The notes below the pieces were generated by a model. It was not told the DNA's origin. It saw only the letters and a program-made list of their open reading frames with translations, and made no database searches. The position numbers were made by a program, and so were the translations under genes. From Chitinophagaceae bacterium (GTDB lineage: Bacteria; Bacteroidota; Bacteroidia; Chitinophagales; Chitinophagaceae), in contig JAEUVB010000013.1 of NCBI GenBank assembly GCA_016786845.1, positions 1 through 64,000 on the forward strand: DNA of 64,000 nucleotides, in the 5' to 3' direction. This document shows positions 10,029 through 35,561 of this stretch, piece by piece (position 1 is the first letter of the stretch; every line of letters starts with the position of its first letter).

Positions 10029-11429
10029 ATGAACAAACTACATTTTCACCTCATTCTTTTTTTAGCCGTTTTGCTCGTCCACACACAGACATTTGCTCAA
10101 GCACCGAATCAATATAATTATCAGGGTGTAGCCCTGAATGGAAGTGGTACGCCGATTAGCAATTCGACCATTAATTTGAAATTCAGAATTTTCCAGGGAG
10201 TGACCAACGCGTATAAAGAAGAACGAGCCGTACTGACCGACAATATGGGTCATTTCTCTTGCGTCATTGGCAGCCCCGGTGCGGTTAATATCACCGGTTC
10301 ACTGAACAACATCGATTGGAGCAACTATCCAAACAGTTTACAAGTAAGCATGGATGCCAGTGGAGGTACGAACTTCACGGTATTGGGCCTGGATACCTTT
10401 AAGACCGTTCCCTATGCACAATATGCCAATCGAGCCACGAAAGCAGATTCATTGATGCTTCCGTTTGAAGACACGGATAACAATACGGCATCCTTTAAGG
10501 TCACAAATACCTTATCAGGCGGAACGGCTATTTGGGGTAAAGCGACAAATATTAACCCAAATTCTGCGGGCATCATGGGAGAAGGAAACGGAGGAAGCTC
10601 CGTTGGGGTAAAAGCAACGAATACCACAGGGTTTGCCGTTTATGCTACCGGCACGCCCACTTCATTGAACCCGGTGATTTATGGACAGAGTACCGGAAGT
10701 GCGGGATCGGGTGTGAAAGGCAAGTCGGATGGTGCTGCAGGTGTAGGAGTATACGGTGAATCATTGGCCGGAAAAGGTGTGGAAGGGTATGGTAATAATG
10801 CCGGAAGTATTGGGGTCAAAGGGAGCGCTCTTGCCGGAATTGGCGTAAAAGCCTACAGCTTCTCAGGAACCGCATTAGATGTGGAAGGTAACCTGAAAAT
10901 AGCCGGTGGAAATACCACCCCCGGGCTTGGCAAAGTATTGACAAGTGATGCCAGTGGTAATGCCACATGGAAATCACCGGGCAAGGTCGGATTTGTGGCA
11001 GAAAACAATAATACAATAACAGTAAACCATAATACTACGATCACAATGACCTTACAAGGTGAATTATATGATAATACAAATAGCTTAAATCTTTCGGGAT
11101 CAGCTATTGACCCTAATACTTTCGTGGCACCGGTCAGCGGATTTTATCATTTTACCGCCCGATGCTTTTATTTATATCAAAGTTTAACTTACAATCTTGA
11201 GGGTGCAAATATTTGGTTCAGAGTTAATACGACCGATCTTAAAGGTATTGGAGCATCCGCCCCATTGCATATTTCCACACAAACGAAAATGCCTCTGGAA
11301 CTGAACAGAGATATTCATTTAAATGCCGGAGACAAAGTAGTCGTGCGTACCAATCAAATCAATGGTGGTGGTGGATCAGCAGTACTTTGGGAAGCCTATT
11401 TCAGTGGATATTTAATTTATGAAGACTAA
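10029..11429 (+). CDS. Fibre-like secreted protein with C1q-like tip
   Basis: A 466-residue protein with signal peptide ending TQTFAQ. The N-terminal domain (about 25-140: YNYQGVALNGSGTPIS ... TVPYAQYANRA) is the same module that opens the four large paralogues at 19.9-32.9 kb. A glycine-rich shaft follows (GVYGESLAGKGVEGYG, GVKGSALAGIGVK), then the linker GLGKVLTSDASGNATW. From about residue 318 a C1q/TNF-like jelly roll runs to the end (GFVAENNN ... FVAPVSGFYHFTARCF ... YFSGYLIYED). C1q-like domains form trimers in known cases, as do tail-fibre shafts. It has no sorting domain of its own. A small T9SS protein follows 19 bp downstream. Confidence 0.8.
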   Translation: MNKLHFHLILFLAVLLVHTQTFAQAPNQYNYQGVALNGSGTPISNSTINLKFRIFQGVTNAYKEERAVLTDNMGHFSCVIGSPGAVNITGSLNNIDWSNYPNSLQVSMDASGGTNFTVLGLDTFKTVPYAQYANRATKADSLMLPFEDTDNNTASFKVTNTLSGGTAIWGKATNINPNSAGIMGEGNGGSSVGVKATNTTGFAVYATGTPTSLNPVIYGQSTGSAGSGVKGKSDGAAGVGVYGESLAGKGVEGYGNNAGSIGVKGSALAGIGVKAYSFSGTALDVEGNLKIAGGNTTPGLGKVLTSDASGNATWKSPGKVGFVAENNNTITVNHNTTITMTLQGELYDNTNSLNLSGSAIDPNTFVAPVSGFYHFTARCFYLYQSLTYNLEGANIWFRVNTTDLKGIGASAPLHISTQTKMPLELNRDIHLNAGDKVVVRTNQINGGGGSAVLWEAYFSGYLIYED

Positions 11430-11448
11430 TTATTAAACTATAAATACT

Positions 11449-12222
11449 ATGAGAACCTATTATATTTTCATCCTGTTCCTTTGTTGTTCCTGCCCTTTGA
11501 TCTCAGCATCACAAAGCATACAGAAAAAAGTGATCAGCAGTTCAGGGAAAGTAATGAGTGGGGGTGGAGCGAGCCTCAACTACACCTTCGGAGAAATGGC
11601 TGTAGCGAAATACAGCAATTCCGGAATGACTTTAGCACAAGGATTTCAACCCTATTATCTAATAATTAATACTCCCTTACCGGTGGGTTGGCTAAGCTTT
11701 GATGCGCGTTGGAAAAGTGAGCATGAGGCCATATTGAAATGGCGTTTATCGAATGAAAAAAATTGTAAAGGGTTTCACATCGAGCGCATGCAGGAGGGTG
11801 AAAAAGACTTTTCAATTGTCGGATATGTTCCAACTCAGGCAGAAAATGGTCAATCAGATATTACCACAGACTATGAGTATTACGACAATGACTATCAGAA
11901 TAAAAAAACATTCTACCGCATTCGCCAGGAAGATCAGGATGGCCGTAACAGCTATAGTGAAACAAGACTTGTTTTCGGTAACGGAAGTACCGATGTAAAC
12001 ATTGAAATATGGCCGGTGCCTGCCAATACCACGGTTCATATCATGGTCAACGGTTTAGGAAAAAATACTCAAGTGGTCATTCTGGATATGCAAGGTAAAG
12101 TGATTAAACGATTGGAAATGCTTCAAAATAATCATATTGAATTAAATGGATTGGCAGCAGGTATGTATATCGTACAAGTAGCCAATCAGCCGGGGGTTTC
12201 CCAGAAAATAATCGTTCAATAG
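11449..12222 (+). CDS. Small T9SS type A cargo paired with the C1q-tipped fibre
   Basis: A 257-residue secreted protein with a signal peptide ending CPLISASQS. Residues of about 20-70 carry the GEM/TQGF module (LNYTFGEMAVAKYS, then LAQGFQPYY). Residues of about 80-175 resemble a fibronectin-like region that often precedes sorting domains (WLSFDARW ... FHIERM ... FYRIRQEDQDGRNSYSE). A type A sorting domain ends the protein (IEIWPVPANTTVHIMV ... ILDMQGKVIKR ... LAAGMYIVQVA). It starts 19 bp after the fibre gene, so the two are probably co-transcribed. The perfect terminator at 12260-12298 closes the unit. The N-terminal module is related to the partners at 25517 and 29222. Confidence 0.8.
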   Translation: MRTYYIFILFLCCSCPLISASQSIQKKVISSSGKVMSGGGASLNYTFGEMAVAKYSNSGMTLAQGFQPYYLIINTPLPVGWLSFDARWKSEHEAILKWRLSNEKNCKGFHIERMQEGEKDFSIVGYVPTQAENGQSDITTDYEYYDNDYQNKKTFYRIRQEDQDGRNSYSETRLVFGNGSTDVNIEIWPVPANTTVHIMVNGLGKNTQVVILDMQGKVIKRLEMLQNNHIELNGLAAGMYIVQVANQPGVSQKIIVQ

Positions 12223-19922: not shown

Positions 19923-22052
19923 TTATTTGCGTTTAGACATTTGAGGACGAGTCATGTTTTGCCCTATTCCCTCTCCGATTGGGCGACCGGCTTCGATCGG
20001 ATAGAGATATTTCCCTTTGTTCTCCTCTTCTTTCTCAACTTCAGGCACCACGCGATGTGCATTCGCAAAATCGTCCTGACGTATACCGGTCACTTGCCAA
20101 CTAATTTCGACATTCGGCTTGTCGGATCGTATTGCGAATTGATGATTCGCAATTTTCTCGGCGATCCATACTTGAGCAGGCTGACCGATACAAGTCAATT
20201 GATAACGAAAATCGCGATTGAGGGCATCAAAATAATCGGGCAAAACCACCAACGCATATCCATTAGCATCTGTGGTGATATTACCGTTATAAATATTCAT
20301 CATATCCGGGCTCTCCACAAAACTATGGTAGAGGTATTTGTTTGCCGGGTCTAATGGATGATCAATGAGAAAAGTGCCGCTTCCTTTTGACACACTCCCG
20401 GTTACGGCCAAATTGCCCACGACACCCACTTTACCGTTGAAGTAACCGGCATAACTATTAGCTGTGGCTCCTGTGCTATTCACATCACCATATACACCTA
20501 CATTTACCGTACCATTTTCAGCCAGAGCATATAAACCATATTTAGAGCCCAGATTTCCGGTAGTATCAGAATGAGCATAAGCTGCAAGACCGTAGGTATC
20601 GCCACGTCCGGCGCCTTCCGCACTTCCACCATATACAGAAAAAGTACTGGCACATTTTGCGAACCCTGAGAGCCCCAGATAGCCGCCTTCTCCATAGACC
20701 CCTATGCCATAATTATCTGTCAATGATGGTTGCGACTTTCCATATAATGCGATATGATCATCTATCGTTGTTCCGGTATATTCAGCCCTTATGACGCCTT
20801 GTGTATGATCGGATCCGCTACCATTGACCACCTGTACGTAAGCATCCGAGCCGGTGACATTCAAGGGAGCGGTTGGTGTGAGGGTACCGATACCCACATA
20901 ACCATTTGCTGCAATCAATACATCTGTCGTATTGTTTGTACCTAATCCCAGGGTACTATTTTCCCTATTGATCATACTGGCAGCATTGCCGGTGGTGCGG
21001 ATATCCAAACCATCGGTGATGGTATGTCCTGTAGTGGCATTGGTAATTTTTAACGTATCTCCTGTGGCCGTATGATTAATGTGTACATTACCGGCCGGTG
21101 TTGCTCCTCCGCCAAGACCTAAATTCTCCGTCGTAAAATCGGCGTGGAATTTTATTTTCGTTCCGGATGTTTTAGTTATAGCGATACCAACATTACCACC
21201 GGAGCTTATCAGAAAGCGACCATTACCATCATTTTGCGTTAGGCCATTATTTCCAAAAGCTAAAAGATTCGCATTGGGATATAATGATGAACCTCCATAA
21301 TTTCCCGTGACAGCCGTTCCATATTTTGTAAATGTAGAATAAGCACTGGAGTTATCATTAAACATCAGGAAACGACCTGAGCTTCCGGAGTTCGCATTTT
21401 CCATGCGCACATGATTGACCTGAGTGGCAGAATTCGAATAGATATGCAAGCGATTGGTGGCGCTGGAAGAAGCCGGAGATCCGATGATGACGGTGTTCCC
21501 GTTGTCTTGCACCTGAGAATTATAAATCGTATTGGCGGCGGTAAATTTGGGAAGAAAGTTTGTGGTTCCTGTACCTGTGGCTGATGTAGACACTGTACCG
21601 GAACGGGTTTTTCCTGAACCATCAGACAGTTCACGGGCGATACCCGCTTGATTGGCAAAGATGGCATAGGGTACACTGAGCAATTGGGTGGTGCCGAGCA
21701 ATTCAAACTGATTACCACCCTTGGGATCAATTTTAACTTGAATGTATTGATTGCCGGATTCCCATTTAACTGATTTCATATTACCGCTTACCACATTCCC
21801 CGCTCCGATTTGTAAGTTATAGAGTCCGTAAGCATTGGTGGTGACATATTGTGTTTCTGCGTATTGTGGTTGAAGTGATTCTGCATTCTCCAAAATTGAC
21901 AAATGAAGATGTATCGTTTGATTCGATATAGGTTGCCCGCTTACATTTCGTGCAACACCCTGATAATTAAACAAATAAGGCGACTGGGCCTGAACTTGAT
22001 TCCAAAAAAGCAGGACAATTGATAAAACTAAAGAGGATTTAAACTTGTTCAT
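19923..22052 (-). CDS. Fibre-like secreted protein, IDHP-type tip (array member 1)
   Basis: A 709-residue protein with signal peptide ending QVQAQS. The N-terminal domain (FNYQGVARNVSGQPIS ... QLLSVPYAIFANQAGIAR) and the following shaft (NGNTVIIGSPASSS ... YPNANLLAFGNNG ... KFHADFTTENLGLGG) match the other array members. Its middle has GYVGIGTLTPTAPLNV, a phrase common in tail-fibre-like proteins, and G-rich YG/GVYG segments. From about residue 558 a conserved terminal domain follows (LIDHPLDPANKYLYHSFVE ... VSWQVTGIRQ equivalent ISWQVTGIRQ). It has no T9SS sorting domain. No enzymatic motif is seen; a structural or adhesive role is inferred. No clear terminator follows its stop. Confidence 0.75.
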   Translation of the reverse strand: MNKFKSSLVLSIVLLFWNQVQAQSPYLFNYQGVARNVSGQPISNQTIHLHLSILENAESLQPQYAETQYVTTNAYGLYNLQIGAGNVVSGNMKSVKWESGNQYIQVKIDPKGGNQFELLGTTQLLSVPYAIFANQAGIARELSDGSGKTRSGTVSTSATGTGTTNFLPKFTAANTIYNSQVQDNGNTVIIGSPASSSATNRLHIYSNSATQVNHVRMENANSGSSGRFLMFNDNSSAYSTFTKYGTAVTGNYGGSSLYPNANLLAFGNNGLTQNDGNGRFLISSGGNVGIAITKTSGTKIKFHADFTTENLGLGGGATPAGNVHINHTATGDTLKITNATTGHTITDGLDIRTTGNAASMINRENSTLGLGTNNTTDVLIAANGYVGIGTLTPTAPLNVTGSDAYVQVVNGSGSDHTQGVIRAEYTGTTIDDHIALYGKSQPSLTDNYGIGVYGEGGYLGLSGFAKCASTFSVYGGSAEGAGRGDTYGLAAYAHSDTTGNLGSKYGLYALAENGTVNVGVYGDVNSTGATANSYAGYFNGKVGVVGNLAVTGSVSKGSGTFLIDHPLDPANKYLYHSFVESPDMMNIYNGNITTDANGYALVVLPDYFDALNRDFRYQLTCIGQPAQVWIAEKIANHQFAIRSDKPNVEISWQVTGIRQDDFANAHRVVPEVEKEEENKGKYLYPIEAGRPIGEGIGQNMTRPQMSKRK

Positions 22053-22170
22053 AAAAGAAAAATTTCCATAAAGGTAAAAATCTCTGAATAGCGATGATAA
22101 CGAATTCGCTCAAGAAGGAATTTGTGAAGACGAATTATAAACTCTGATAAGAATTTAACATGGATAAAAA

Positions 22171-22203
22171 ATAAAAAGAGGCTGCCTATTCGGCAGCCTC
22201 TTT
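22171..22203 (-). terminator. Intrinsic terminator after the proline-rich gene
   Basis: A perfect 12-bp stem (aaagaggctgcc at 22175-22186 with ggcagcctcttt at 22192-22203). On the minus strand it is followed by a T-rich tract. It lies 18 bp after the stop at 22221 and probably ends the three-gene unit 26053-22221. Confidence 0.88.
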
Positions 22204-22220
22204 CAACATTGAGCTATTGA

Positions 22221-22991
22221 TTATCGCTTAGAGTTGCGATCCGATTCGGTCAATGGTTTGGTTAAAGGAGCAGGTGCCGGAGATGCCATCACGGGTCTTT
22301 CTGACTCAGATAACAAGACTGGTTGAACTGAAACCGGTGATGCAACCAATGGTGTACTTTGCTGACGATTCAATTCCTGAGTCGAAGTTACATTTGCCTT
22401 CACAGCATTTGCTTTCGGTGTACCGGGTTGTTGAATGTTCTTGTCTGCATTACCTGTAGAAGCATGATTGACTTGTGCCGGAACAGGTGTTGTACCTGAA
22501 ACACTTGGATGATTAACCTGTTCTATGGGCTTTTCTACCGGAGCAGGTTCCATCACGATAGGAGAAGCCTGATATCCTGCGACCTCTTTGCGAACAAATT
22601 TCTCTTGAGGAAGAGGAATAGGTTGTGCATTCGGGTTGCGAACATAATTCTCTGTTGGAAGCGGAATGGGTTTGGCATTTGGGTTACGTTGGTATTTCTC
22701 TTCCGCCGGCATAATGGTAACCCGCTTAACAGGAACGCTATTGGTTTCCTTACTTACTAGAGACTCATCAATGCCCATTGTAACATTGGTATTTTGGGAA
22801 GGAAGAGTCCTAGATGGTGAAGAAATAATAGTATTATCCGAAATTTGAGTTATTCCATTAACAATTTGCGGCTTAGTATTTGCTTGACCTTCAGAGATTG
22901 ATTTATCTCCTTGCTGAGCAAAAACAGGCGATACCAAAACACAAAGACCGAAACTGAACATAGATGTCATTATTATTTTTCGATTCTTCAT
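22221..22991 (-). CDS. Proline-rich repeat secreted protein
   Basis: A 256-residue protein of unknown function with signal peptide MKNRKIIMTSMFSFG...VFAQ. After it the sequence is low in complexity and rich in proline, asparagine, serine and valine. A motif of about 17 residues is repeated in the middle (YQRNPNAKPIPLPTENY, then YVRNPNAQPIPLPQEKF). No folded domain, membrane segment or sorting domain is seen. It starts 43 bp downstream of the C1q-tipped fibre gene with no terminator between, so it may be the third gene of that unit. A disordered periplasmic linker or cell-wall-associated role is possible but unproven. Confidence 0.65.
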   Translation of the reverse strand: MKNRKIIMTSMFSFGLCVLVSPVFAQQGDKSISEGQANTKPQIVNGITQISDNTIISSPSRTLPSQNTNVTMGIDESLVSKETNSVPVKRVTIMPAEEKYQRNPNAKPIPLPTENYVRNPNAQPIPLPQEKFVRKEVAGYQASPIVMEPAPVEKPIEQVNHPSVSGTTPVPAQVNHASTGNADKNIQQPGTPKANAVKANVTSTQELNRQQSTPLVASPVSVQPVLLSESERPVMASPAPAPLTKPLTESDRNSKR

Positions 22992-23034
22992 TTTGTTGTT
23001 TTTATTTTATTAAAGTTAAAAATATCATATAGAA

Positions 23035-25413
23035 TTAACGAACCAAATGTCCACTAAAACTCATTTCCAGACTGTTATTACTAACTGTGATAGAGCCACC
23101 GGAGAAATTACCCAACTCCACTTTAATCACATCACCTGCTACCAATTTTACTGTTACTGAATTTTGGATACTCCATTGTGCTGTGGTTGAAGGTTGTGCA
23201 CGAAGAATAGTCCCAGGCAGAAATGATCCATTTTTCATTAGACCAATACGGCACTGGCTAGTGCCACCCCCAGCAGTCATTACAGCACCAAAATTGAATT
23301 GATACAATCCATCAATTGGCGCTGTAAATTCGCCGGTTGTATTATTATAACTTCCCGACTCATCAAAATCTTCTGTACCGTATATTAATGTTACAACACC
23401 GCTAGCAATGGTACCAGCAGAGCAGGAATTGGCTAAAAATCCTACAGCACCTTGCCAAGAACCTGTACCTGTGCTATTAGAAACCAAGACCTTACCATTA
23501 CCCTGATTACCATCTACAATTTTGATAGGTCCCTGACTCCATACTCCATAACCGGAAGAAGAACCATAAACACCAATATCCGTTGTAGTTGGCACAGCAG
23601 TTCCGCCAAAAGCGATTCCCGCAACACCGGCACCAAAACCGAAATTTGGCTGACGACCTAATACAGCGATTTGTTGAGAAGAACCACTATTTGTTACCGC
23701 TAAAAATGCCGTATCATTTGAAGTTTCCACATGCAATTTAGTCAATGGTGAAGAAGTACCAACACCGACACGTCCTAATGCAGACGCATTAACATTCATG
23801 GTATTATTTCCTAAATAACTGCTACCATCGTAATTAAACATGTTCGTACCGAAACCGGTCATTACATCACCGCCAAAATAGTTCAAGAACAATGTATTAA
23901 ACCCTGATACACCATTTTTGGATTGGATTTCATTGTCATCTAAGGTAACGTGAAAACCAGTAGCATTACCGATATTAACTATGCCATCGGTAGTACTACT
24001 TGAATTCAATGTGGTATTTTGAACTTCAAGAGGAACACTAGGATTAGAAGTAGCGACACCCACATTTCCTGTGTTATCATCAATGATCATAGCCGGTGTA
24101 TTACCAGGTCCAAAAACATTTGGAGCAAAAGCGAGTTGACCTGCAGCATTTTCTTCGACTACAAAGCCATCAGCGCCATTGTCAAATGTGATTGAAGGAG
24201 TGGCTGTATTCAAGTTTAATGCACTTGAACCAAAATTAAAACTACCAATTGAAACATTACCTGAGGCATTAATGTTCATACGGTCTGTATTGTTAGTACC
24301 AAAATATAATGCATCGTTTTCCATGTTGGTGATCGACGCTGAAGTACCGGCAGTGCGAATTTCCAAACCATCGGTGGCAGTATGTCCTGATCCGCTGTTT
24401 GTAATTTTCATCGTATCACCCGGTGTATTTGAGTTGATATGGACATGTGTAGCCGGTGCCGCATTTCCACCTATTCCGACAAAACCGGAAGTAAAGTCAG
24501 CATGGAATTTCAAGGTTGTACCTGTTGTTTTTGTAAGAGCGAGCCCAATATTACCGCCATTCGTCATCAAGAAACGACCGTTTCCATCATTGGCAACGCT
24601 TCCATTGTTTCCAAAAGCCAAAAGATTTGCGTTAGGATATAAGGGGTTACCACCATAATTGCCGGCAACACCGGTACCATATTTAGTAAATGTTGCGTAC
24701 GAATTCGCACCGTCGTTCCCCATGTAGAAACGACCAGTACCTCCTGCATTTGCATTTTCCATACGTACATAGGTTTGCTGAACCGCATTGTTGGTATAGA
24801 TGTGCATGCGATTGTTAGCACTTGAACTAGCCGGTGAACCAATGATGACTGTATTTCCATTATCAGTAATTTGAGAGTTGGTAATGGTGTTACCAGCACT
24901 TGTAAATTTAGCGAGCTTGTTCACGTCACCGGTTGTACCAGCAGCAGTAGACACTGTCCCAGCTCTTGTTTTATCGGTACCATTGGCAGTTTCACGAGCT
25001 ACACCTGCCTTGTCGGCATAGATAGCATAAGGCACACTCAGCAGTTGAGTGGTACCGGCATCTACATAGTCTGTACCGCCTTTAGGGTCGATGGCTACGC
25101 GGATATATTTGTTCCCGGTTTCCCATTTCACGTTTTTCATTTCACCGCTAATGGCAGTACCGGCTCCGATTTGGAGGGTATACAATCCAAATTCATTGGT
25201 GGTCACGAGCTGAGTTTCTTCATACTCAGAAACCGTTGCATCAATTGTAGGGAGTACCGACAATTTGATGGCTAATTGTTGCTTGGCAACCGGATTACCT
25301 TTAGCATCACGGGCTATCCCCTGATAATTAAATTTTTGAGGTGCCTGTGCATAGGCCATGCTTCCCATCAGGAGCATCAGCAATGTAAACAGAAGTTGAA
25401 TGTTTGATTTCAT
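23035..25413 (-). CDS. Fibre-like secreted protein, C1q-like tip (array member 2)
   Basis: A 792-residue protein with signal peptide ending SMAYAQ. The constant N-terminal part covers about residues 22-370 (FNYQGIARDAKGNPVAKQQ, YAIYADKAGVARETA, YPNANLLAFGNNGSVANDG, DGLEIRTAG). The variable middle includes VGVGTSSPLTKLHVE and a linker GNGKVLVSNSTGTGSW. From about residue 656 the tip looks like a C1q domain (GFLANSCSAG ... FTAPIDGLYQFNFGAV ... LEMSFSGHLVR). It is close in length to phage-fibre-like proteins. A partner gene with a T9SS sorting domain lies directly upstream in the same direction. It lacks its own sorting signal, so its export route beyond the periplasm is unclear. Confidence 0.78.
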   Translation of the reverse strand: MKSNIQLLFTLLMLLMGSMAYAQAPQKFNYQGIARDAKGNPVAKQQLAIKLSVLPTIDATVSEYEETQLVTTNEFGLYTLQIGAGTAISGEMKNVKWETGNKYIRVAIDPKGGTDYVDAGTTQLLSVPYAIYADKAGVARETANGTDKTRAGTVSTAAGTTGDVNKLAKFTSAGNTITNSQITDNGNTVIIGSPASSSANNRMHIYTNNAVQQTYVRMENANAGGTGRFYMGNDGANSYATFTKYGTGVAGNYGGNPLYPNANLLAFGNNGSVANDGNGRFLMTNGGNIGLALTKTTGTTLKFHADFTSGFVGIGGNAAPATHVHINSNTPGDTMKITNSGSGHTATDGLEIRTAGTSASITNMENDALYFGTNNTDRMNINASGNVSIGSFNFGSSALNLNTATPSITFDNGADGFVVEENAAGQLAFAPNVFGPGNTPAMIIDDNTGNVGVATSNPSVPLEVQNTTLNSSSTTDGIVNIGNATGFHVTLDDNEIQSKNGVSGFNTLFLNYFGGDVMTGFGTNMFNYDGSSYLGNNTMNVNASALGRVGVGTSSPLTKLHVETSNDTAFLAVTNSGSSQQIAVLGRQPNFGFGAGVAGIAFGGTAVPTTTDIGVYGSSSGYGVWSQGPIKIVDGNQGNGKVLVSNSTGTGSWQGAVGFLANSCSAGTIASGVVTLIYGTEDFDESGSYNNTTGEFTAPIDGLYQFNFGAVMTAGGGTSQCRIGLMKNGSFLPGTILRAQPSTTAQWSIQNSVTVKLVAGDVIKVELGNFSGGSITVSNNSLEMSFSGHLVR

Positions 25414-25516
25414 GTTTTGTTTTTTAAGTGTTTAAAAAAAGTTGAAGGTTTTAAAAGTTAAAGGTGGTGCAAATAATCAGCAGATTTATTTAGAGCTGAA
25501 GGTTTTGCACCCTTGG

Positions 25517-26053
25517 TTAATTCATTTTTTGAATTTTGAACGAATAAGTTTGTGCATTTCCATCTTTACCCGGCTTGCGAATCATCAGGTAGTATGAACC
25601 CTGGGCTAACGCATGCAAATCGAGGCTAAATTTATTTGCCCCTGCTTTTTGTTGTTCGGTTCGGCTTAATACCACTTTCCCGGTCGCATCAAAAAGCTGA
25701 TAAGAGAAGTCAGCGTTGAGTGTTTCCAGGGTTTCAATGAATAGGATGTTGTCAGTAGGATTAGGATAAACTTTGATCTGATCTGCGAGATCATTCATTG
25801 TTGTATTTCCGGGGTCTGCGTTGGCTCCGCTACCTGAGCCAATAGGTTGTAACAATCCCTGTGTTACGATCAGGTTGCCGCTGTGTGCTGTGCTGACCAC
25901 AGTCATTTCGCCAATCGAATAATCAAAGGTCATCCCGTTGATTTTTGCTGAATGTCCTGCGACATTCAGTGTCGATTGCGAAAAAGCTGTACCGGCCATC
26001 ATCGAGAACGCAGCAAACAATGCTGTGCGGATGAGTGTTGGGTTTTTCTTCAT
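25517..26053 (-). CDS. Small T9SS type A partner protein (couple A)
   Basis: A 178-residue secreted protein from the ATG at 26053, which begins a proper signal peptide (MKKNPTLIRTALFAAF...AFSQ); the frame is open 18 codons upstream without one. Residues of about 25-75 form the GEM/TQG module (FDYSIGEMTVVST, GNLIVTQGLLQP). A type A sorting domain follows (IKVYPNPTDNILFIE ... LFDATGKVVLSR ... LAQGSYYLMIRKPG). It lies 103 bp upstream of the C1q-tipped fibre gene and probably shares its promoter. It is nearly identical in layout to the gene at 29222, so the couple seems to have been duplicated. Confidence 0.82.
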   Translation of the reverse strand: MKKNPTLIRTALFAAFSMMAGTAFSQSTLNVAGHSAKINGMTFDYSIGEMTVVSTAHSGNLIVTQGLLQPIGSGSGANADPGNTTMNDLADQIKVYPNPTDNILFIETLETLNADFSYQLFDATGKVVLSRTEQQKAGANKFSLDLHALAQGSYYLMIRKPGKDGNAQTYSFKIQKMN

Positions 26054-26211
26054 GTAATATAAATTTTTACAAAAGTCACCAAATAAAACGACATCAAAAT
26101 ATGACATTTATCAAATGGTCAGACTCAATGAGTATTCGGTCGATTTGGGCTGAAAATTGGCGAAAGTGTTTGAACATATAAATCGCATTTCAATATCTTA
26201 CTATCCGGGTA

Positions 26212-26243
26212 TAAAAAAAGGCTACCCGAGAGGTAGCCTTTTT
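26212..26243 (-). terminator. Intrinsic terminator after array member 3
   Basis: A 12-bp stem (aaaaaggctacc at 26215-26226 with ggtagccttttt at 26232-26243) and a minus-strand T-run lie 19 bp after the stop at 26263. Confidence 0.88.
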
Positions 26244-26262
26244 GAGTAATGAAAATGAAATT

Positions 26263-29124
26263 TTATCGTTGACCGGCCAATTTCAAACCATTCCGGTTAG
26301 AATGTTGAGGCTGTTGTGGTTTCCAGTTTTCTTTTGCCTTTTGTTCTGCATCCTGATGGATTTGATCTTGCAATTCCTTTTCAGCCAGATCGCGGGCGTG
26401 ATCGGCAGGTGTTGGAAGATTTCTTACATTTGCCGAAAGATTTCCTTTAGGCCCAACACTTTGCGTAGCAGGTTTGCCGAATAATTCAGGATGTAAATAA
26501 TATCCTTTGTCTGCCGCAGATTTTTCCAACTCAGGTACCACTCTGTTTGCGTTGGCCCAAGCATCCTGACGAACACCGGTTACCTGCCAACTCACTTTTA
26601 CGTTAGGTTGACTGGTTTGAATCACGAATTGATTGGCAGTAACTTCTTCTTTAATAATTGCCTGAGCAAAAGTACCTATGACAGTCAACTGATATTTGAA
26701 GTCTTTGTTTTCGGCTTCAAAATAGGATGGGAGGCTTACAATCGCAAAACCATTGGCATCAGTTGTAATGTTTCCGTTATAGACATTCATCATGTCCGGA
26801 CTTTCAACGAAGCTATGGATCAGGTACTTGTTTTCCGGGTCTTGCGGGTGATCAATTTTGAAAGTACCACCTGATTTGGAGAGGTTACCTAAAACGGATA
26901 CATCACCTTGGAAAAATCCGGCATAGCTATTTGCTGCCACAGGAGCATAACCCATCACTGCATAATTATAAGTTGCATTTAACGCTTCGCCATAGGTTCC
27001 GACATTCCAATAGTTTGGCGTGTTGATCGCACTCCCTGCAACACCGATATTAGAATGTACAAACATTGCAGAATTTGTCATGCTACTTTTACCCATCACG
27101 CCAATGGCCTCTTTGTATCCAAAAAATCCACCGATAAATGAAGTTTGACTTGCACTTGCACTATCTGCTTCGCCATATACCCCGGTTTGCTTTCCTTTAA
27201 AATAACCACCTGTGACATTCCCCGGCTGTAAGGAAAAGAGATTAGCGTATACACCATAGTTATTGGCGCCACCAGAGGCATAGGCATAAAGTCCATACTT
27301 ATTACCAACCCCTATTGCAGTATTATAACCTGCACTTGCCTGCATTCCATAACTGCTATTATCCGAATTAGCCAGTCCACGGACACCGGTATTTCCGCCA
27401 CCACTGCCTCCTAATGATGAATATCCATTCACACCAAAATATCCTCCTTCGCCCTCAAGACCTATACCCCAAAATGAATTTGGATCGGGGACCGAACGGC
27501 CAACCATTCCTCTATGATCACTGACATTAGATCCTAAATATTCAGAACGAAGTATTCCATTGAAAATTCCATTATTGCTATTTGATGTAAAATGACCGGC
27601 GGTATCAAATTCAGTATTGATATTCAATTGTGCATTACCAATTGAACCTAAAATATTTCCCATTCTACCGGAAGTCAAATCGATATGAAAACCATCACCG
27701 ACTGCATTCATTAAAGAAAGTGTATTGAGGGTCGTTCTGAAAACTGAGGCTACATCATTTGGAGAACTGCCCCAATTCCAAGTTCTCACTTTACTGCTAT
27801 CTCCCATAACCATACCCATAAATGTATTCTCTCCTTCTGCTCTGGTGAGGGTTAAATAATTGTATTGTCCTGAATAAGGCTGATGAAAATTATTCATAAA
27901 CATACTTGGTGTATAATTCGCCGAACTGCTTTCGTAGTCCGTTAAGTTATCTCGGTTATACATTCTGCGTCCCAAAGAATCTATAATCATTCTGGTCAAG
28001 TTATTTGTACCTAAAGAAAGCGAGCTGTTTTCGCGATTGATCACAGTTGCCTTATTGGCAGTCATACGAATTTCCATACCATCCGTTGCGGTGTGACCTG
28101 TGTTTGAGTTTGTTATTTTCAAAGTATCACCACTCACATTATTATTGATATGAACATTGGAAGTTGGTGCGGCGTTACCACCGATTCCAACATTACCGGA
28201 TCCAAAGTCAGCATGAAATTTTAAAGTGGTACCGGATGATTTTGTGATGGCCAATCCGATATTACCTCCGTTGGTTATCAGGAATCGGCCGGTGCCATCA
28301 TTGGCTACGGAGCCGTTGTTTCCAAAGGCTAACAAATTGGCATTGGGATACATGGCATTACCTCCATAATTACCTGCGACACCATTACCATATTTCGTGA
28401 AAGTAGCATAGGAATTTGCTCCATCATTGGCCATCAAGAATCGTCCCTGCGCACCGGTATTTGCATTTTCCATGCGTAAATAAGTTTGTTGAGTAGCATT
28501 GTTGGTGTAGATGTGCATTCGATTATTTGCACTAGAGCTTGCAGGTGTACCAATAATTAATGTATTACCATTGTCCCACAATTGAGAGTTGGCAATGGTA
28601 TTGGGGGCTACGAATTTGGGTAGGTAATTGGTAGTTCCTGTTCCGGCCGCGGAAGTTGAAACAGTACCTGCACGAGTTTTACCTGTGCCATCTGCAGTTT
28701 CACGAGCGATCCCTGCTTTATCGGCATAGATGGCATAGGGTACACTGAGCAATTGTGTGGTACCGGCATCGACATAATCTGTACCACCTTTAGGATCGAT
28801 AGCTACACGAATATATTTATTACCCGTTTCCCATTTCACCGATTTCATTTCACCATTAACGGCGTTTCCTGCTCCTATTTGGAGTGTATACAAACCAAAT
28901 TCATTGGTTGTTACGAGTTGTGTTTCCTCGTATTCAGATACAGTTGCATCTATAGTTGGGAGTATCGATAATTTAATCGCTAATTGTTGTTGTGCAACAG
29001 GATTGCCCTTCGCATCACGGGCAATTCCCTGATAGTTAAACTTTTGAGGTGCTTGTGCAAAGGCAGTGCTTGCTCCTAAAAGAAGGAAAAGTAAGGTCAG
29101 TAAGTTTTGAATGTAAGATTTCAT
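26263..29124 (-). CDS. Fibre-like secreted protein, IDHP-type tip with charged tail (array member 3)
   Basis: A 953-residue protein from the ATG at 29124, which gives a standard signal peptide (MKSYIQNLLTLLFLLLG...AFAQ); the open frame extends 24 codons further upstream. The first 370 residues are nearly the same as in array member 2. The variable middle contains many glycine/tyrosine repeats (GVYANLFSLQPGNVTGGYF, GGFFGYKEAIGVMGKSS). The conserved terminal domain starts near 755 (KIDHPQDPENKYLIHSFVE ... VSWQVTGVRQDAW). A lysine/glutamine/glutamate-rich helical tail of about 60 residues ends the protein, possibly a coiled coil. There is no sorting domain; the partner gene at 29222 lies upstream. 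Role inferred as a surface or periplasmic fibre. Confidence 0.77.
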   Translation of the reverse strand: MKSYIQNLLTLLFLLLGASTAFAQAPQKFNYQGIARDAKGNPVAQQQLAIKLSILPTIDATVSEYEETQLVTTNEFGLYTLQIGAGNAVNGEMKSVKWETGNKYIRVAIDPKGGTDYVDAGTTQLLSVPYAIYADKAGIARETADGTGKTRAGTVSTSAAGTGTTNYLPKFVAPNTIANSQLWDNGNTLIIGTPASSSANNRMHIYTNNATQQTYLRMENANTGAQGRFLMANDGANSYATFTKYGNGVAGNYGGNAMYPNANLLAFGNNGSVANDGTGRFLITNGGNIGLAITKSSGTTLKFHADFGSGNVGIGGNAAPTSNVHINNNVSGDTLKITNSNTGHTATDGMEIRMTANKATVINRENSSLSLGTNNLTRMIIDSLGRRMYNRDNLTDYESSSANYTPSMFMNNFHQPYSGQYNYLTLTRAEGENTFMGMVMGDSSKVRTWNWGSSPNDVASVFRTTLNTLSLMNAVGDGFHIDLTSGRMGNILGSIGNAQLNINTEFDTAGHFTSNSNNGIFNGILRSEYLGSNVSDHRGMVGRSVPDPNSFWGIGLEGEGGYFGVNGYSSLGGSGGGNTGVRGLANSDNSSYGMQASAGYNTAIGVGNKYGLYAYASGGANNYGVYANLFSLQPGNVTGGYFKGKQTGVYGEADSASASQTSFIGGFFGYKEAIGVMGKSSMTNSAMFVHSNIGVAGSAINTPNYWNVGTYGEALNATYNYAVMGYAPVAANSYAGFFQGDVSVLGNLSKSGGTFKIDHPQDPENKYLIHSFVESPDMMNVYNGNITTDANGFAIVSLPSYFEAENKDFKYQLTVIGTFAQAIIKEEVTANQFVIQTSQPNVKVSWQVTGVRQDAWANANRVVPELEKSAADKGYYLHPELFGKPATQSVGPKGNLSANVRNLPTPADHARDLAEKELQDQIHQDAEQKAKENWKPQQPQHSNRNGLKLAGQR

Positions 29125-29221
29125 ATGACATGGATTTAATTGTTTAAAAAAAAAGAGTGTATGGATTGTCTGAAAAGAGAACAATTGACCATACACCCAT
29201 TGATACTAAAAAATAATATGA

Positions 29222-29755
29222 CTAATTCAGCTTCTGAATTTTAAAAGAATAATTTTCTAATTTACCATCTTTAGCCGGTTTACGAATCATAAGATAGTAA
29301 GAGCCCTGAGCCAATGATTGCATATCCAAACGGAATTTATTGACACCTGCCTTTTGCTCTTCAGTGCGTTTGAGTACAACTTTTCCGGTTGCATCAAATA
29401 GTTGATAATCGAATTCTGCACTCAGAGTTTCTAAAGTTTCAATAAATAAAATATTACTGGTCGGGTTGGGGTACACTTTAATTTGATTGGCCGTTTCATT
29501 CAAGGTATTATTCCCGGGATTCGTGTTTGCATTTTGCCCGGAACCGGTAGGTTGCAATAAACCTTGAGTGACAATCAGATTGCCGTTTCTTTCAGTGCTC
29601 ACTACTGTCATTTCGCCAATGGAATAGTCAAAGGTCATTCCATTAATTTTAGCTGAATGGCCGGTTACATTCAAAGTAGTTTGTGCAAATGAATGACAGG
29701 AAATCATCATGACTCCTGCGCAAATTGCAGAACGAAGAATAAGTGTGTATTTCAT
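29222..29755 (-). CDS. Small T9SS type A partner protein (couple B)
   Basis: A 177-residue secreted protein (signal peptide MKYTLILRSAICAGVMMI...SFAQ). It has the same GEM/TQG module (MTFDYSIGEMTVVST, GNLIVTQGLLQPTG) and type A sorting domain (IKVYPNPTSNILFIE ... FDATGKVVLKR) as the gene at 25517; most positions are identical by eye. It lies 97 bp upstream of the fibre gene that starts at 29124. The repeated order partner-then-fibre supports a joint role, for example a surface anchor for the fibre, but no contact is shown by the sequence. Confidence 0.82.
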   Translation of the reverse strand: MKYTLILRSAICAGVMMISCHSFAQTTLNVTGHSAKINGMTFDYSIGEMTVVSTERNGNLIVTQGLLQPTGSGQNANTNPGNNTLNETANQIKVYPNPTSNILFIETLETLSAEFDYQLFDATGKVVLKRTEEQKAGVNKFRLDMQSLAQGSYYLMIRKPAKDGKLENYSFKIQKLN

Positions 29756-29856
29756 ATGATTTAATTTTACGTAAATATAAGAATCTTAAAGATTATTTTT
29801 TTAAAAATGATAAGTATCAGTCATTAATTTTCAAACATTAAAAATCATTAGGGAGA

Positions 29857-29887
29857 TAAAAAAACCGCTCTACACGAGAGCGGTTTT
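29857..29887 (-). terminator. Intrinsic terminator after array member 4
   Basis: An 11-bp stem (aaaaccgctct at 29861-29871 with agagcggtttt at 29877-29887) with a minus-strand T-run lies 17 bp after the stop at 29905. Confidence 0.88.
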
Positions 29888-29904
29888 ATGTTTATTTCAA
29901 TTGA

Positions 29905-32889
29905 TTATCTGTTTTGCGGATATGCAGGCGAGTTTATTGAAGGTAACGCGGCAGGTTTAGCCTGATAAGCATTTTCAGCAGCTCTTCTTTCTGCCTTAGC
30001 CTTTTCCTCTTGTTGCTTTTGCTTGGCCTGTGTTGATTCAATCTCAGCCAAATAAGCAGGATCTGAACTTGAATGCGCTTGCTGATGATCAGATTCGTAA
30101 CTAACGCCAAATTCTTTAGATTTACCATAAGCTTCTGGAACCATATACTTACCACGTAAATCCTGTGGTTTCATTTCTTCGATGACAATTGGATACTTTT
30201 GAGCAGTGGCATCATGGCGAACCCCACTTACCTGCCAACTTACTTTTACATTGGGTTTGCTGGTACGGATTTCAAATGAATTATTCGACACCTCACGGGT
30301 CACTTTAGACATCACAAAATCGCTGCTATTATCGAGAACAGTAAGCTGATATTTGAAATTCTCATTCAATGCTTCAAAATAATCCGGTAAAGTAATTGTC
30401 GCATATCCATTAGCATCTGTTTGAATATTGCCATTGTAGATATTCATCATATCATTGCTTTCGATGGAACTATGGCGCAGGTATTTATTTTCCGGATCCA
30501 AAGGATGATCAATCATAAAGGCCTTAACCCCTGCTGAAGAAGAAGTTGCATAAAGTTGACCGGAGAAATACCCGGCCCAGTTGGTCGTTGCACCATATGC
30601 TTCTGCCCATACACCATAGTTTGTAGAACCTGTGTTGGAAGCAGTGGCACTTACCGCACGCTTAGACCCTGCAGATGCATCGGCCATTGCTATTATACCG
30701 GCATATCCACCAATACCTTTTAACCCTATTCCTTTAGCCTGATTTGCAACGGGCTTTGAATAGCCGTATACACCAACATAATCTTGAGCAGCTGTCCCAA
30801 CATATTGTCCACGCAGAACACCTTCTGTTAAAGCATTTGCAATGGCATTACTATTTCCTGAAGTAAAAACACCGGACTGGTTAGAATCAGCTACACCGAC
30901 AACCGCCTTACCTCTGTAACTGAAAGAATATACCCCGTTATCAGAATTATTACTAGAGTAGTCAATGGTGTTGATTCCTCCATCGAAAGCGGCCGCTGCG
31001 GTCCCGTTTCCTGAAGAGACATAACAATATAATGCCGGTGTATTTGAGGTCAGGTTAGACTTTCCGAATATGGCAACCTCTGCATTACCTGATTTTTCAG
31101 CGACAATAGCTTTTCCACCCAAAATGTCATTAATGAATATACCATTCTGACCTAATGTGGTATCTGCTTGTAAAGTAACACGATAGGTTGGATTACCGGC
31201 AGAAGTACCCAGACCAATTCTTGCAGTATCAGCCATAATCATCGTATTGCCATAAGGAGCAAAACGGATATTACGGCTTGTGCCATAGGAGGTCCCCATT
31301 TCCATTCCACCATCTGCATGCATAATATAATCTGAGTAACTTGCATTACTATCCGCAAAGCCCATCCAAGCGCCATTACCTTCCAGACGAATACCTTCAT
31401 CAAAGCTACCACGATTCACATGCAATAATACTTTCGGGTTGTTCGTGGCAATTCCCACTCTTCCTAAAGAATCCACCTCCATACGCAAAGTATTATTGGT
31501 TCTTAAAGACAAGCTGGCATTATCAGAGGTGCCAATGAAATTTGTGCCGCTGTTGGTACCTGCATTACCGGTTAAACCCCAGCCACTGCCACTGCCTCCA
31601 CCACCGGATGGAACTTGCCAAGTAGCCAAACCTGTCGCATCTGAAGTCAGTACTTTTCCAACACCGGGGGCACCACCTTGAATTCGAATTTGACCGTTGA
31701 TATCCAAATTTGTGGTCGGTGTAGTTGTTCCTATTCCGACGTTTCCGTTCGCATCAATTCTTACATTCACTGCATTATTCGTACCTAAATCAAGGGTGCT
31801 GTTTTCTTCATTAATGATAGCTGCAGCATTACCGCTTGTCCGAATTTCCAATCCATCGGTTGCTAAATGACCGGTGGTAGAGTTGGTAATTTTTAGCGTA
31901 TCACCGCTGACACTGTTATTGATATGAACATTGGTAGCCGGAGCGGCATTTCCACCTAAGCTAACATTACCGCTTGCAAAATCTGCATGAAATTTAACCG
32001 TTGTACCTGTTGTTTTAGTAATGGCTAAACCAATGTTACCACCATTTGTGATCAGAAAACGCCCTGTCCCATCATTTGCTACACTACCATTGTTTCCGAA
32101 GGCCAAAAGATTTGCATTTGGATACAAAGGGTTACCACCATAGTTCCCTGCGATGCCATTTCCATATTTAGTAAACGTAGCATATGAATTAGCACCATCA
32201 TTGGTCATCAAAAATCGGCCTGTACCACCAACATTTACATTCTCCAGTCGGAGGTAAGTTTGCTGAACGGAGTTATTTGTATAAATATGAAAACGATTAT
32301 TAGCACTGGTACTTGCAGGATTTCCAATAATCAGGGTATTCCCATTATCCCAAAGTTGAGAATTTGCGATCGTGTTAGCAGCGACAAATTTAGTTAGATA
32401 GTTTGTTGTTCCGGTACCTGCTGCAGATGTTGAGACTGTACCTGAACGGGTTTTTTCTGTTCCATTGGCAGTTTCACGAGCGATACCGGCCTTATCTGCA
32501 TAAATCGCATAAGGCACACTCAATAACTGAGTCGTTCCAGCATCTATATAGTTATCTCCACCATTAGGGTCGATCGCTACACGGATATACTTATTCCCGG
32601 TTTCCCATTTTACCAATTTCATCTCTCCTGTAATGGCAGTACCATTCCCAATCTGAAGGGTATATAATCCAAATTCGTTGGTCGTTACCATTTGAGTTTC
32701 TTCGTATTCGGGTACTGTTGCATCCATAGCAGGCAACACCGAAAGCTTGATCGCTAGAGTTTGAGTCGCTACAGGATTCCCTTTAACGTCCCGTGCAATT
32801 CCCTGATAATTAAATTTCTGAGGTGCTTGAGCCCATGCTAATGATGCGATAAGCATTAAGGCAAAAGTGAAGAAGTGTTTTTTTAGCAT
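29905..32889 (-). CDS. Fibre-like secreted protein, IDHP-type tip with coiled tail (array member 4)
   Basis: A 994-residue protein from the ATG at 32889 (signal peptide MLKKHFFTFALMLI...AWAQ); the frame is open 33 codons upstream without a signal. The constant N-terminal region matches members 2 and 3 (FNYQGIARDVKGNPVATQT, YAIYADKAGIARETANGTE). The middle has NGNVGIGTTTPTTNLDING and a linker GVGKVLTSDATGLATWQVP followed by a glycine/serine hinge. The conserved terminal domain begins near 791 (MIDHPLDPENKYLRHSSIE, VSWQVSGVRHD). The last 70 residues are rich in K, E, Q and A and look helical. No T9SS partner lies directly beside it; the terminator at 29857 isolates it from couple B. Confidence 0.77.
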   Translation of the reverse strand: MLKKHFFTFALMLIASLAWAQAPQKFNYQGIARDVKGNPVATQTLAIKLSVLPAMDATVPEYEETQMVTTNEFGLYTLQIGNGTAITGEMKLVKWETGNKYIRVAIDPNGGDNYIDAGTTQLLSVPYAIYADKAGIARETANGTEKTRSGTVSTSAAGTGTTNYLTKFVAANTIANSQLWDNGNTLIIGNPASTSANNRFHIYTNNSVQQTYLRLENVNVGGTGRFLMTNDGANSYATFTKYGNGIAGNYGGNPLYPNANLLAFGNNGSVANDGTGRFLITNGGNIGLAITKTTGTTVKFHADFASGNVSLGGNAAPATNVHINNSVSGDTLKITNSTTGHLATDGLEIRTSGNAAAIINEENSTLDLGTNNAVNVRIDANGNVGIGTTTPTTNLDINGQIRIQGGAPGVGKVLTSDATGLATWQVPSGGGGSGSGWGLTGNAGTNSGTNFIGTSDNASLSLRTNNTLRMEVDSLGRVGIATNNPKVLLHVNRGSFDEGIRLEGNGAWMGFADSNASYSDYIMHADGGMEMGTSYGTSRNIRFAPYGNTMIMADTARIGLGTSAGNPTYRVTLQADTTLGQNGIFINDILGGKAIVAEKSGNAEVAIFGKSNLTSNTPALYCYVSSGNGTAAAAFDGGINTIDYSSNNSDNGVYSFSYRGKAVVGVADSNQSGVFTSGNSNAIANALTEGVLRGQYVGTAAQDYVGVYGYSKPVANQAKGIGLKGIGGYAGIIAMADASAGSKRAVSATASNTGSTNYGVWAEAYGATTNWAGYFSGQLYATSSSAGVKAFMIDHPLDPENKYLRHSSIESNDMMNIYNGNIQTDANGYATITLPDYFEALNENFKYQLTVLDNSSDFVMSKVTREVSNNSFEIRTSKPNVKVSWQVSGVRHDATAQKYPIVIEEMKPQDLRGKYMVPEAYGKSKEFGVSYESDHQQAHSSSDPAYLAEIESTQAKQKQQEEKAKAERRAAENAYQAKPAALPSINSPAYPQNR

Positions 32890-33113: not shown

Positions 33114-35561
33114 TTATCTGACAAGTGTAAAATCTCCTTTCAGAAAATCTGTTCTTCCGGTTGGGTAGGAAACCCGAATCATGTAGTAATATACTCCGGG
33201 ATCCTGAGGAACACCTTTATAGGCACCGTTCCAACCCTGTGAAATGTCTTTGGTATAGAATAATTCCTGCCCCCAACGATTAAATATCCTGAACTCCTGA
33301 ACGGTAATGAGCTTCCGTGCGAGTACCTTAAAGATATCATTTAATCCGTCACCATTTGGAGAGAACGCATTAGGCACGATCACGTCCTGCATTAATACGG
33401 TGATATGAAATGAATCCGTCTGAGGACAACCTTGCAATAAGCTTACACCTGTGACAGTATAGGTAATATCCTCAAGAGGCTGGGCAACAGGATCATTACT
33501 TTGTGTATAATGAAGATATTCTGTTGGTGTCCAATAATAGAACGGCGCTCCGGTTGCTCTCAATGGTACTTCGTCACCGATATAAATAGTGGTGTCATTA
33601 TTGTGAAGCACCAATTGGAATGGCGGATGGTTTTCAACGGTTACATCCAATGTATCCTGACAACCATGAGGATCCAGTAAAACAGCAAAATAAGTCGTCG
33701 TTCCCAAACCTGTAGCGATAGGGGTCGGACAATTGTCACAACTTAAATTGGCTGCAGGATACCATAAATATTGACCATTACCACCGGTTACCCATAATTC
33801 TACAGGTTGACCTGAACAAACTAAAGTATCGTCAATAATATCACCTGCCGTAAAAGGCCAAACCTGAACAAAGAATTGATCCGTTGCCGTGCATCCGGCA
33901 TTTGGAGATGTGACCGTAAAATCTATAGTTTGGGATGTCGTTCCTACAAATGTGGGATTGTAACCACCTGCATTAATAAGGTCTGTTGCAGGCGACCAGG
34001 TAATATTATAATTAAATGGTGGTGAAACCGAAGCGCTGATGTCGACTTGTTTACCTTCACAAAGCTCCAGATCAGGTAATGGCGTGATGACCGGTATAGG
34101 GTCTGTAATAATCGTAAATCCTCTAGTAACAGGTGTACAGGTACCGAATGAACCTGTTACGGCATAATATTGTGAACCCACCTGATTCGGTGTAATGGTT
34201 GTTACCAAACTATTGGGATTTAATACCCCGTTGGGTGGTGTCCATTGCATATTCATACCACTATCCATCACCCCCACTATATTCACTGAACTTCCTAAAC
34301 AAATAGCTGTATCCACATTGCTAATAGAGAATGCCAAAGAATCTTTAATTTCGATTATCAGACTGTCGGTGATCATGTTACTGCATCCACTTGAAACATA
34401 TATTTTAATAAACTCAGTTCCTTCAGCGATGCCATCCTGAAAAGCATATAGGTTCAGCGTTTGAACGGTATCATTGGGGTTGGCTGTGAAAGCTACATAG
34501 TTAGGTAAAGTGGTATAATCTATTCCATTTTGAGCGTTACCTTGTATAATCAGATTGATGGTATCTACATTTGCAGATCCCATAACAATTTTACGTTTCA
34601 CTTGAAGAGTAGCACTGTCGCAACCTTCAACTAATACCGGCGCACCACTAGTAGATGTTAAGCCTGTATTCAGCTTCACAGTCACAATATTTGAAGTAAA
34701 ACTTCCTGCTTTTAGGAATACTCCGGAATCCAAAACTTGATCCCCTTTATCGGCAATGGCCAGTTTAATATGATATGTGGAACAAGGTACTACCTCATGG
34801 ATTGCCGTTAAAACGGTGGTAAAGCCGGGATAGGCAACTGTTGCTCCTCCTGCATTGCAGACAAAATAAGAACAAGTATTATTTCCGGCATTAAAAGCAC
34901 CGCAACCGGGTGTATTTCCGAAACAGAAATTAGACGTATTGCAACAACCCGGGCTATTTGGACAATAAATCGTGCTCACACCTACAGGACAGGTAGTAGA
35001 GCCCGGCACCAAAGCCAAATTAACCGCTCCACCGGTATAAGGACCTGCAATTCCGGGCCCGCTGAGGAAGAAACCGAATACATCATTAAATGTTGTACAA
35101 GTCCAGGAAGGGTATTCGCAAGAACCGAAAACATAATCAAATTTCACGGTATCCCCTATTGTAACAAAATCAAATTCCAACAGGCACTTATCGTAGGTTG
35201 CTCCACCAATGACCGTGGTTAAATCAGGATCACCACCGTTGCCTGTGACTCCGGTATACACCCCGGCAGCAGCATTAGCCCCGGTCCCGCTCATATTGGT
35301 CGCGGCCTGACCGGAGGTCAATACGATTCCACTATCTAATCCAAGATTACTTGAAGTTACGGTAAAAATACCACTTCCGTAATTGGTACTTCCCGACGGG
35401 TTTGCACCACAATTCAAAGTGGCGTTAGAGACGGTAACTCCAAAACCAACGAGTGTTTGAGCCAACTGAGTGGCGGAATTTGTTCCATTAACGGCTATTT
35501 GGGCCGTCAAAGTGGTAAAACTTGCAAGAAATACTGTAATAAATAATAGTACTTTTTTCAT
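33114..35561 (-). CDS. Choice-of-anchor L protein with T9SS type B sorting domain
   Basis: An 815-residue secreted protein with signal peptide ending TLTAQ. Residues of about 25-270 form a choice-of-anchor L domain: LGLDSGIVLTSGQA, CLLEFDFVTIGDTVKFDYVFGS in parts, and a cysteine-rich stretch with TTCPVG and CPNSPGCC. The middle has Ig/PKD-like segments (ICLGSSVNIVG, ELCEGKQVDISASV). The last 90 residues are a type B sorting domain (VIVPNAFSPNGDGLNDIFKV ... FNRWGQELFYT ... KGDFTLVR). This type of protein is secreted by the T9SS and is often long and adhesive. It is the most upstream gene of the minus-strand array but has its own terminator. Confidence 0.88.
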   Translation of the reverse strand: MKKVLLFITVFLASFTTLTAQIAVNGTNSATQLAQTLVGFGVTVSNATLNCGANPSGSTNYGSGIFTVTSSNLGLDSGIVLTSGQAATNMSGTGANAAAGVYTGVTGNGGDPDLTTVIGGATYDKCLLEFDFVTIGDTVKFDYVFGSCEYPSWTCTTFNDVFGFFLSGPGIAGPYTGGAVNLALVPGSTTCPVGVSTIYCPNSPGCCNTSNFCFGNTPGCGAFNAGNNTCSYFVCNAGGATVAYPGFTTVLTAIHEVVPCSTYHIKLAIADKGDQVLDSGVFLKAGSFTSNIVTVKLNTGLTSTSGAPVLVEGCDSATLQVKRKIVMGSANVDTINLIIQGNAQNGIDYTTLPNYVAFTANPNDTVQTLNLYAFQDGIAEGTEFIKIYVSSGCSNMITDSLIIEIKDSLAFSISNVDTAICLGSSVNIVGVMDSGMNMQWTPPNGVLNPNSLVTTITPNQVGSQYYAVTGSFGTCTPVTRGFTIITDPIPVITPLPDLELCEGKQVDISASVSPPFNYNITWSPATDLINAGGYNPTFVGTTSQTIDFTVTSPNAGCTATDQFFVQVWPFTAGDIIDDTLVCSGQPVELWVTGGNGQYLWYPAANLSCDNCPTPIATGLGTTTYFAVLLDPHGCQDTLDVTVENHPPFQLVLHNNDTTIYIGDEVPLRATGAPFYYWTPTEYLHYTQSNDPVAQPLEDITYTVTGVSLLQGCPQTDSFHITVLMQDVIVPNAFSPNGDGLNDIFKVLARKLITVQEFRIFNRWGQELFYTKDISQGWNGAYKGVPQDPGVYYYMIRVSYPTGRTDFLKGDFTLVR

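Follow-up and report, generated by a model that had tools for sequence, protein, structure and literature searches.

Five fibre genes with a common base and different tips

The window, by which we mean the whole 64,000-nucleotide stretch of DNA analysed, comes from contig 17 of a 3.6-Mb Bacteroidota draft genome (G000). Inspection of its open reading frames (ORFs) recovered all five fibre-like genes that an earlier note on this sequence had described, each where it had been placed. The array and its border are organized as follows:

10029..11429 (+): fibre W10, 466 aa; N-domain 10098-10439; repeat region; GKVLTSDASGNATW linker; C1q-like tip ~11118-11417
19923..22052 (-): fibre W19, 709 aa; N-domain 21642-21986; shaft ~20913-21643; IDHP tip 19980-20387
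23035..25413 (-): fibre W23, 792 aa; N-domain 25003-25347; shaft ~24240-25004; C1q tip 23041-23391
26263..29124 (-): fibre W26, 953 aa; N-domain 28711-29055; shaft ~27970-28715; IDHP tip 26470-26877
29905..32889 (-): fibre W29, 994 aa; N-domain 32485-32829; shared shaft ~31744-32490; IDHP tip 30121-30522
33114..35561 (-): choice-of-anchor L protein; T9SS type B CTD; conserved array border beside gldF in related genomes

All five fibres begin with a signal peptide and an N-terminal domain of ~115 aa (the N-domain), and the four minus-strand paralogues additionally share a shaft that reaches ~residue 385 in pairwise comparison (W26 against W29, 82% identity over 372 aa; W23 against W29, 77% over 384 aa), just as the earlier note had read them. 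The likely starts of the two longest fibres, W26 and W29, are the ATGs at 29124 and 32889. In W10, the N-domain is followed by a region of repeats and linker, and the shaft common to the four large paralogues is missing. The complete divergence that had been claimed beyond about residue 370 was too sweeping, since three members (W19, W26 and W29) share an IDHP tip, at 59-65% identity to that of W26. Similarly, the two C1q ends that had been proposed fared differently: the Pfam C1q model scored W23 above its cut-off of 23.7 bits (38.8 bits, E 1.3e-9), and W10 below it (15.2 bits).

The genes neighbouring the fibres look like prfB, rho, ndk and gldF/gldG, and no phage genes were found beside the fibre genes in the window, in agreement with the earlier reading. 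The shafts contain VGIGT motifs, as phage fibres do. The choice-of-anchor L protein at the array border is possibly independent of the fibres.

A genome-wide family with a repertoire of tips

The family of five turned out to be part of a larger one: the genome encodes 17 N-domain proteins of up to ~2,000 residues, two of which are cut by contig ends. Their layout is a signal peptide followed by the ~115-residue domain (QAPQKFNYQGIARD...LLSVPYALYA). The count of 17 may be slightly off, as the assembly breaks inside fibre genes, where collagen and shaft sequence is repeated; this is seen at the start of contig 23 (L024:8-4450) and where contigs C20 and C22 end.

At least five kinds of tip sit on this one base within the genome. 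The IDHP tip occurs in five copies, every one on an N-domain protein. Two C1q-like tips (those of W23 and W10) and five S74 chaperone ends (C20a, C23a, C15b and C15c by Pfam; C15a from sequence) were identified, along with one PA plus Lcl_C end, one coiled-coil end, and inner collagen and YadA-head stretches. Across Bacteroidota, sequence grouping sorted the ends of 99 complete fibres into some 22 groups, the largest being the S74-containing (36), IDHP (34) and C1q (6) groups; the S74 group is mixed owing to shared shaft sequence, and several singletons may represent truncated or broken genes. In 50 diverse Bacteroidota fibres, Pfam searches detected abundant trimer-forming modules, namely collagen in 20, S74 in 12, C1q in three and the YadA head in two, as well as phage collar, BclA_C and phage depolymerase C-terminal ends. 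The tip thus varies on a constant N-terminus, with IDHP, C1q, S74 and other ends found; an invariant C-terminal partner was the outcome that had been named as refuting the idea. In L109, what looked like a 2038-aa fibre with the N-domain inside it proved to be a masked stretch read as X rather than a fusion.

Kinship with the MAT fibres of Bdellovibrio

We found that the N-domain is homologous, by profile comparison, to that of the mosaic adhesive trimer (MAT) fibres of Bdellovibrio bacteriovorus, a predator that recognises its prey with such fibres. The NCBIfam model Bdello_MAT_N (NF053851) matched the N-domains of the five window fibres (E 1e-6 to 1e-8, 28-35 bits), all 17 copies in the genome, and 49 of 50 diverse Bacteroidota fibres at E <= 1e-3 (best 1.1e-12), with no match in 14 control genomes. 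Its curated cut-off of 60 bits was reached in none of the 21 genomes searched, so the Bacteroidota fibres form a sister family rather than members of the NF053851 subfamily.

For MATs, surface display, trimeric tips, tip exchange and glycan binding have been shown (Caulton et al., PMC10769870), and the same authors mention that further tips may be used by other bacteria (PMC10769870). The evidence does not support the wholly new system that the earlier note had envisaged, as the display and tip exchange of these homologues are already published (PMC10769870). The resemblance extends to the layout, in which a signal peptide and a conserved beta-rich domain precede a long shaft and exchangeable tips, including S74, C1q/TNF-like and lectin-like ends, and to the copy number (21 in Bdellovibrio, 17 here). 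The Bacteroidota fibres differ in belonging to another phylum, in scoring under the family cut-off, in commonly using IDHP knob, collagen and YadA-head modules, and in that a T9SS-secreted partner gene adjoins about half of their genes.

Predicted structure of the fibre

The structural model of W19 contains a folded N-domain (residues ~28-124, pLDDT mostly 75-90) and a folded IDHP tip (~560-680), joined by a shaft that, modelled as a monomer, had pLDDT values mostly below 50. The N-domain was modelled as a beta sandwich; compared with PDB folds, it resembled general Ig-like sandwiches (Z ~6), with nothing specific, and no PDB entry clearly matched its fold. A PDB sequence search with W26 returned chance matches only.

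The tip was more informative. Residues 585-657 aligned with the knob of the cyanophage Pam1 tailspike (Z 9.0, 2.1 A, 69 residues), followed by several matches of the same protein class at 6.3-7.2, with AP22 gp53 and the R2-pyocin fibre at Z 7.2 each; the Sf6 tailspike and, more weakly, the H-type lectin of Helix aspersa were also matched. Modelling thus predicts a knob fold for the IDHP tip, as in phage tailspikes and R-pyocin fibres, with Foldseek E-values of 0.0025 and above for these matches.

The fibres resemble phage tailspikes, tail fibres and R-pyocin fibres in this predicted knob fold, in their S74 ends and in the shaft motifs, but their N-domain, signal peptide and neighbours are cellular and phage genes are not nearby. 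With trimeric autotransporter adhesins such as YadA and Ata they share YadA-head repeats in some members and the layout of a trimeric surface adhesin; they differ in having no C-terminal YadA anchor and in carrying the base at the N-terminus, which reverses the polarity. The YadA membrane anchor family was absent from the Pfam matches of the 50 fibres. Overall, the earlier proposal of cell-encoded fibres with exchangeable tips on a constant base is supported; they carry trimer-forming modules, and the IDHP tip is predicted to fold much as phage tail fibres do.

A small partner gene adjoins many fibre genes

A small gene that encodes an undescribed domain of ~45 residues and adjoins about half of the fibre genes, irrespective of tip, constitutes a new part of the system. 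We named the domain SGEQP (consensus about ...GGSA.I.G...YSIGEM.LVST......TQGFLQP). Three such genes, absent from the earlier note, adjoin three of the five fibre genes in the window, and a fourth gene occupies the slot upstream of W19:

11449..12222 (+): partner, 257 aa; SGEQP 11521-11661; T9SS type A CTD; ~20 bp downstream of W10
22221..22991 (-): proline-rich secreted protein, 256 aa; lacks any known domain; fills the upstream slot of W19, where a partner would be expected
25517..26107 (-): partner, up to 196 aa; SGEQP 25838-25978; T9SS type A CTD; directly upstream of W23
29222..29755 (-): partner, 177 aa; signal peptide; SGEQP 29543-29683; T9SS type A CTD; directly upstream of W26

No T9SS signal was found on the proline-rich protein at 22221-22991. 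In 53 proteins with the SGEQP domain, no Pfam or NCBIfam model matched except T9SS families, and the literature searched, chiefly non-subscription papers, yielded no T9SS partner for such fibres. When the SGEQP part of a partner was modelled alone with AlphaFold, its pLDDT was 50-60, against 95 for the CTD; this low confidence would fit a domain that folds on binding.

A signal for type IX secretion (T9SS) was present on all 53 partners scanned (48 of type A, five of type B) and on none of 50 fibres. The genome has a T9SS, of which SprA and PorV-family proteins were identified. In six Pedobacter loci (L115, L118, L126, L129, L142 and L150), the partner lies downstream of the fibre and has a type B end, indicating a swap of signal type with retention of the SGEQP domain. 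Outside the 53 scanned proteins, three S74-tipped fibres of contig 15 are each followed downstream by an SGEQP protein with a dockerin-like double repeat (DLDGSGGVDGDDFN) at its end:

L030:6815-7636, contig 15 of this genome: dockerin-like-ended partner, without a recognised T9SS CTD
L031:2740-3534, contig 15 of this genome: dockerin-like-ended partner, without a recognised T9SS CTD
L032:7861-8658, contig 15 of this genome: dockerin-like-ended partner, without a recognised T9SS CTD

The partner tracks the constant base

We quantified the pairing in two sets of genomes that were not chosen by fibre. Across 21 genomes of the genus and order, 46 of 62 SGEQP genes were immediate same-strand neighbours of a fibre gene, where ~0.5 would be expected; in our genome, all seven adjoined a fibre gene. 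Among 80 genomes sampled across the phylum, the N-domain was present in 18 and SGEQP in five, all of them among the 18, and all eight SGEQP genes outside our own genome adjoined an N-domain gene on the same strand when positions were compared by hand.

A wider view came from 79 Bacteroidota loci (Chitinophagaceae, Taibaiella, Pedobacter, Mesonia, Aureispira, Cytophagales and others), analysed together with our own; the 79 were chosen by the N-domain, so that only position within loci is informative. Here, 61 of 63 SGEQP genes were adjacent to a fibre gene on the same strand and none lay on the opposite strand. Of the two exceptions, one lies where its contig stops; the other is a repeat view of a gene, in a locus that truncates its fibre. 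Other ORFs with a T9SS signal in the same loci were adjacent to a fibre on the same strand in only two of 25 cases. The spacing is operon-like, with a gap of at most 103 bp in 44 of 47 pairs in which the partner is upstream.

Partners accompany S74, IDHP, C1q, Lcl_C and rare tips alike, so the partner goes with the constant base. A recognised adjoining partner was found for 60 of the 119 fibre genes in these loci; for the rest, the partner may be shared, replaced or not always needed. No protein fusing N-domain and SGEQP was found among the 119 N-domain and 63 SGEQP ORFs. Distances between N-domains correlated slightly better with those between SGEQP domains (r 0.68, partial 0.51) than with those between partner CTDs (r 0.61, partial 0.34). 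As species descent confounds these correlations and was uncontrolled in them, the co-variation of N-domain and SGEQP is suggestive only.

A proposed model for two-protein display

That this genome encodes a MAT-like repertoire of surface fibres is well supported. We propose that the fibres are exported by Sec and assemble as trimers, each with an Ig-like base at the N-terminus, a shaft of beta, collagen or YadA type, and a tip at the C-terminus. The tip (IDHP knob, C1q, S74-matured or other) would bind a surface, glycan or other ligand, and copies with different tips would let the cell display a repertoire of recognition specificities. The partner, consisting of a signal peptide, the SGEQP domain and a T9SS signal, would reach the outer surface by way of the T9SS and remain there, and its SGEQP domain would bind the constant base; in this way the partner would anchor the fibre or aid its passage over the outer membrane. 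We infer that the fibres form trimers, are displayed on the surface and bind ligands, and that the partner touches the base; likewise, the role of surface anchor or export companion is one we ascribe to the partner because it most simply explains both the T9SS signal and the constant pairing with the base. Taken as a whole, MAT-like trimeric fibres with varied tips and a T9SS-borne partner that anchors them or aids their export make up a model that we hold to be probable. Against it stand the fibre genes with no recognisable partner beside them, the sub-cut-off Bdello_MAT_N scores, and the low modelling confidence of the shaft and of SGEQP. More tentative, with a prospect a little short of even, is its boldest form, a display by two proteins in which a signal-less fibre is anchored, or carried through the T9SS, by a co-encoded SGEQP adaptor gripping the constant base.

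The closest parallel on the T9SS side is the pairing of type B adhesins with PorP/SprF shuttles, likewise two-gene T9SS modules that put adhesins on the Bacteroidota surface. In those pairs the adhesin carries the T9SS signal and its neighbour is an outer-membrane shuttle (PMC12618676, PMC9143113), whereas here the signal is on the neighbour and the fibre has none.

With these findings, MAT-type fibres reach beyond one predatory group into a large phylum of environmental bacteria, and many Bacteroidota proteins of unknown function would gain a meaning. They also name a candidate for the missing fibre anchor: in Bdellovibrio, the surface element bound by the MAT N-domain is stated as unknown (PMC10769870), and the adaptor, if its role is as proposed, would be the counterpart of the element that holds MAT fibres there. 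With two-protein display, one machine could present any tip. A real adaptor would further show how the T9SS can display proteins without a T9SS signal, and would be a natural modular scaffold for presenting binding domains.

Alternative explanations

The fibres could be MAT-like while the partner is a separate small T9SS-secreted surface protein, for example an adhesive or matrix protein, that is merely co-expressed and makes no contact with the fibre. Such an arrangement would readily accommodate the fibre genes that have no partner neighbour, about half of the total, and the partners' varying placement upstream or downstream and differing C-terminal ends; contact between base and partner is, moreover, itself inferred. 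We consider it rather unlikely, because the closely spaced pairing recurs in several orders and is tied to the base, which is constant, rather than to the tip, and because partner genes are seldom found away from fibre genes.

It is quite improbable that the fibres are shed, soluble matrix proteins. The absence from them of a T9SS signal or known membrane anchor would suit this explanation, but their trimer-forming modules, the T9SS signal on the co-encoded partner and their homology to MAT proteins shown on the cell surface (PMC10769870) all argue for attachment.

Captured phage tail-fibre genes, a prophage relic or cargo with no present role at the cell surface, are a very improbable source of the array. 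The match of the IDHP tip to tailspike and pyocin knobs, the phage collar domain serving as tip in one relative, and the N-domain on three virus-classified contigs would point that way. We nevertheless rejected the idea that the locus came from a phage: the N-domain had no PHROG match, phage genes are absent from the window, and Sec signal peptides and neighbouring T9SS-signal genes are out of keeping with virion parts. The three viral contigs (L057, L058 and L059, from IMG/VR) each carry an N-domain fibre gene, with a phage lysozyme-like gene nearby in L057; in L058 and L059, a small gene with a T9SS-like end directly precedes the fibre gene, which makes the module look like a passenger, and prophages may indeed carry it as such. 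Sequence divergence argues against a relic as well. Among the paralogues of our genome, N-domain proteins are 52-95% identical, and fourfold-degenerate sites are mostly only ~20-50% identical, near saturation; conserved proteins with near-saturated synonymous sites indicate that the fibres are kept by selection. C20b and C23a form the only paralogue pair that looks recent.

A programmed diversity-generating array, with a constant expressed 5' end into which silent tip cassettes are swapped by recombination, is scarcely credible: tandem genes with a constant 5' and a variable 3' part, and a slot holding different tips across genomes, would favour it, but every copy is complete and encodes a signal peptide of its own. 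We rejected programmed cassette switching because synonymous sites in the shared part are near-saturated, which implies that gene conversion has not occurred recently and that homologous recombination has little to work on. The same near-saturation points instead to tip exchange over evolutionary time.

We compared the syntenic site between the gldF-linked choice-of-anchor-L gene and ndk among related genomes. Our genome has four fibres there and G005 has one, which is frame-broken in that assembly; in G007 the site holds no fibre and the two border genes adjoin. In G003, a partner and a fibre with a coiled-coil tip occupy the first slot, and a W19-like gene, interrupted by a stop, lies beside ndk on another contig.
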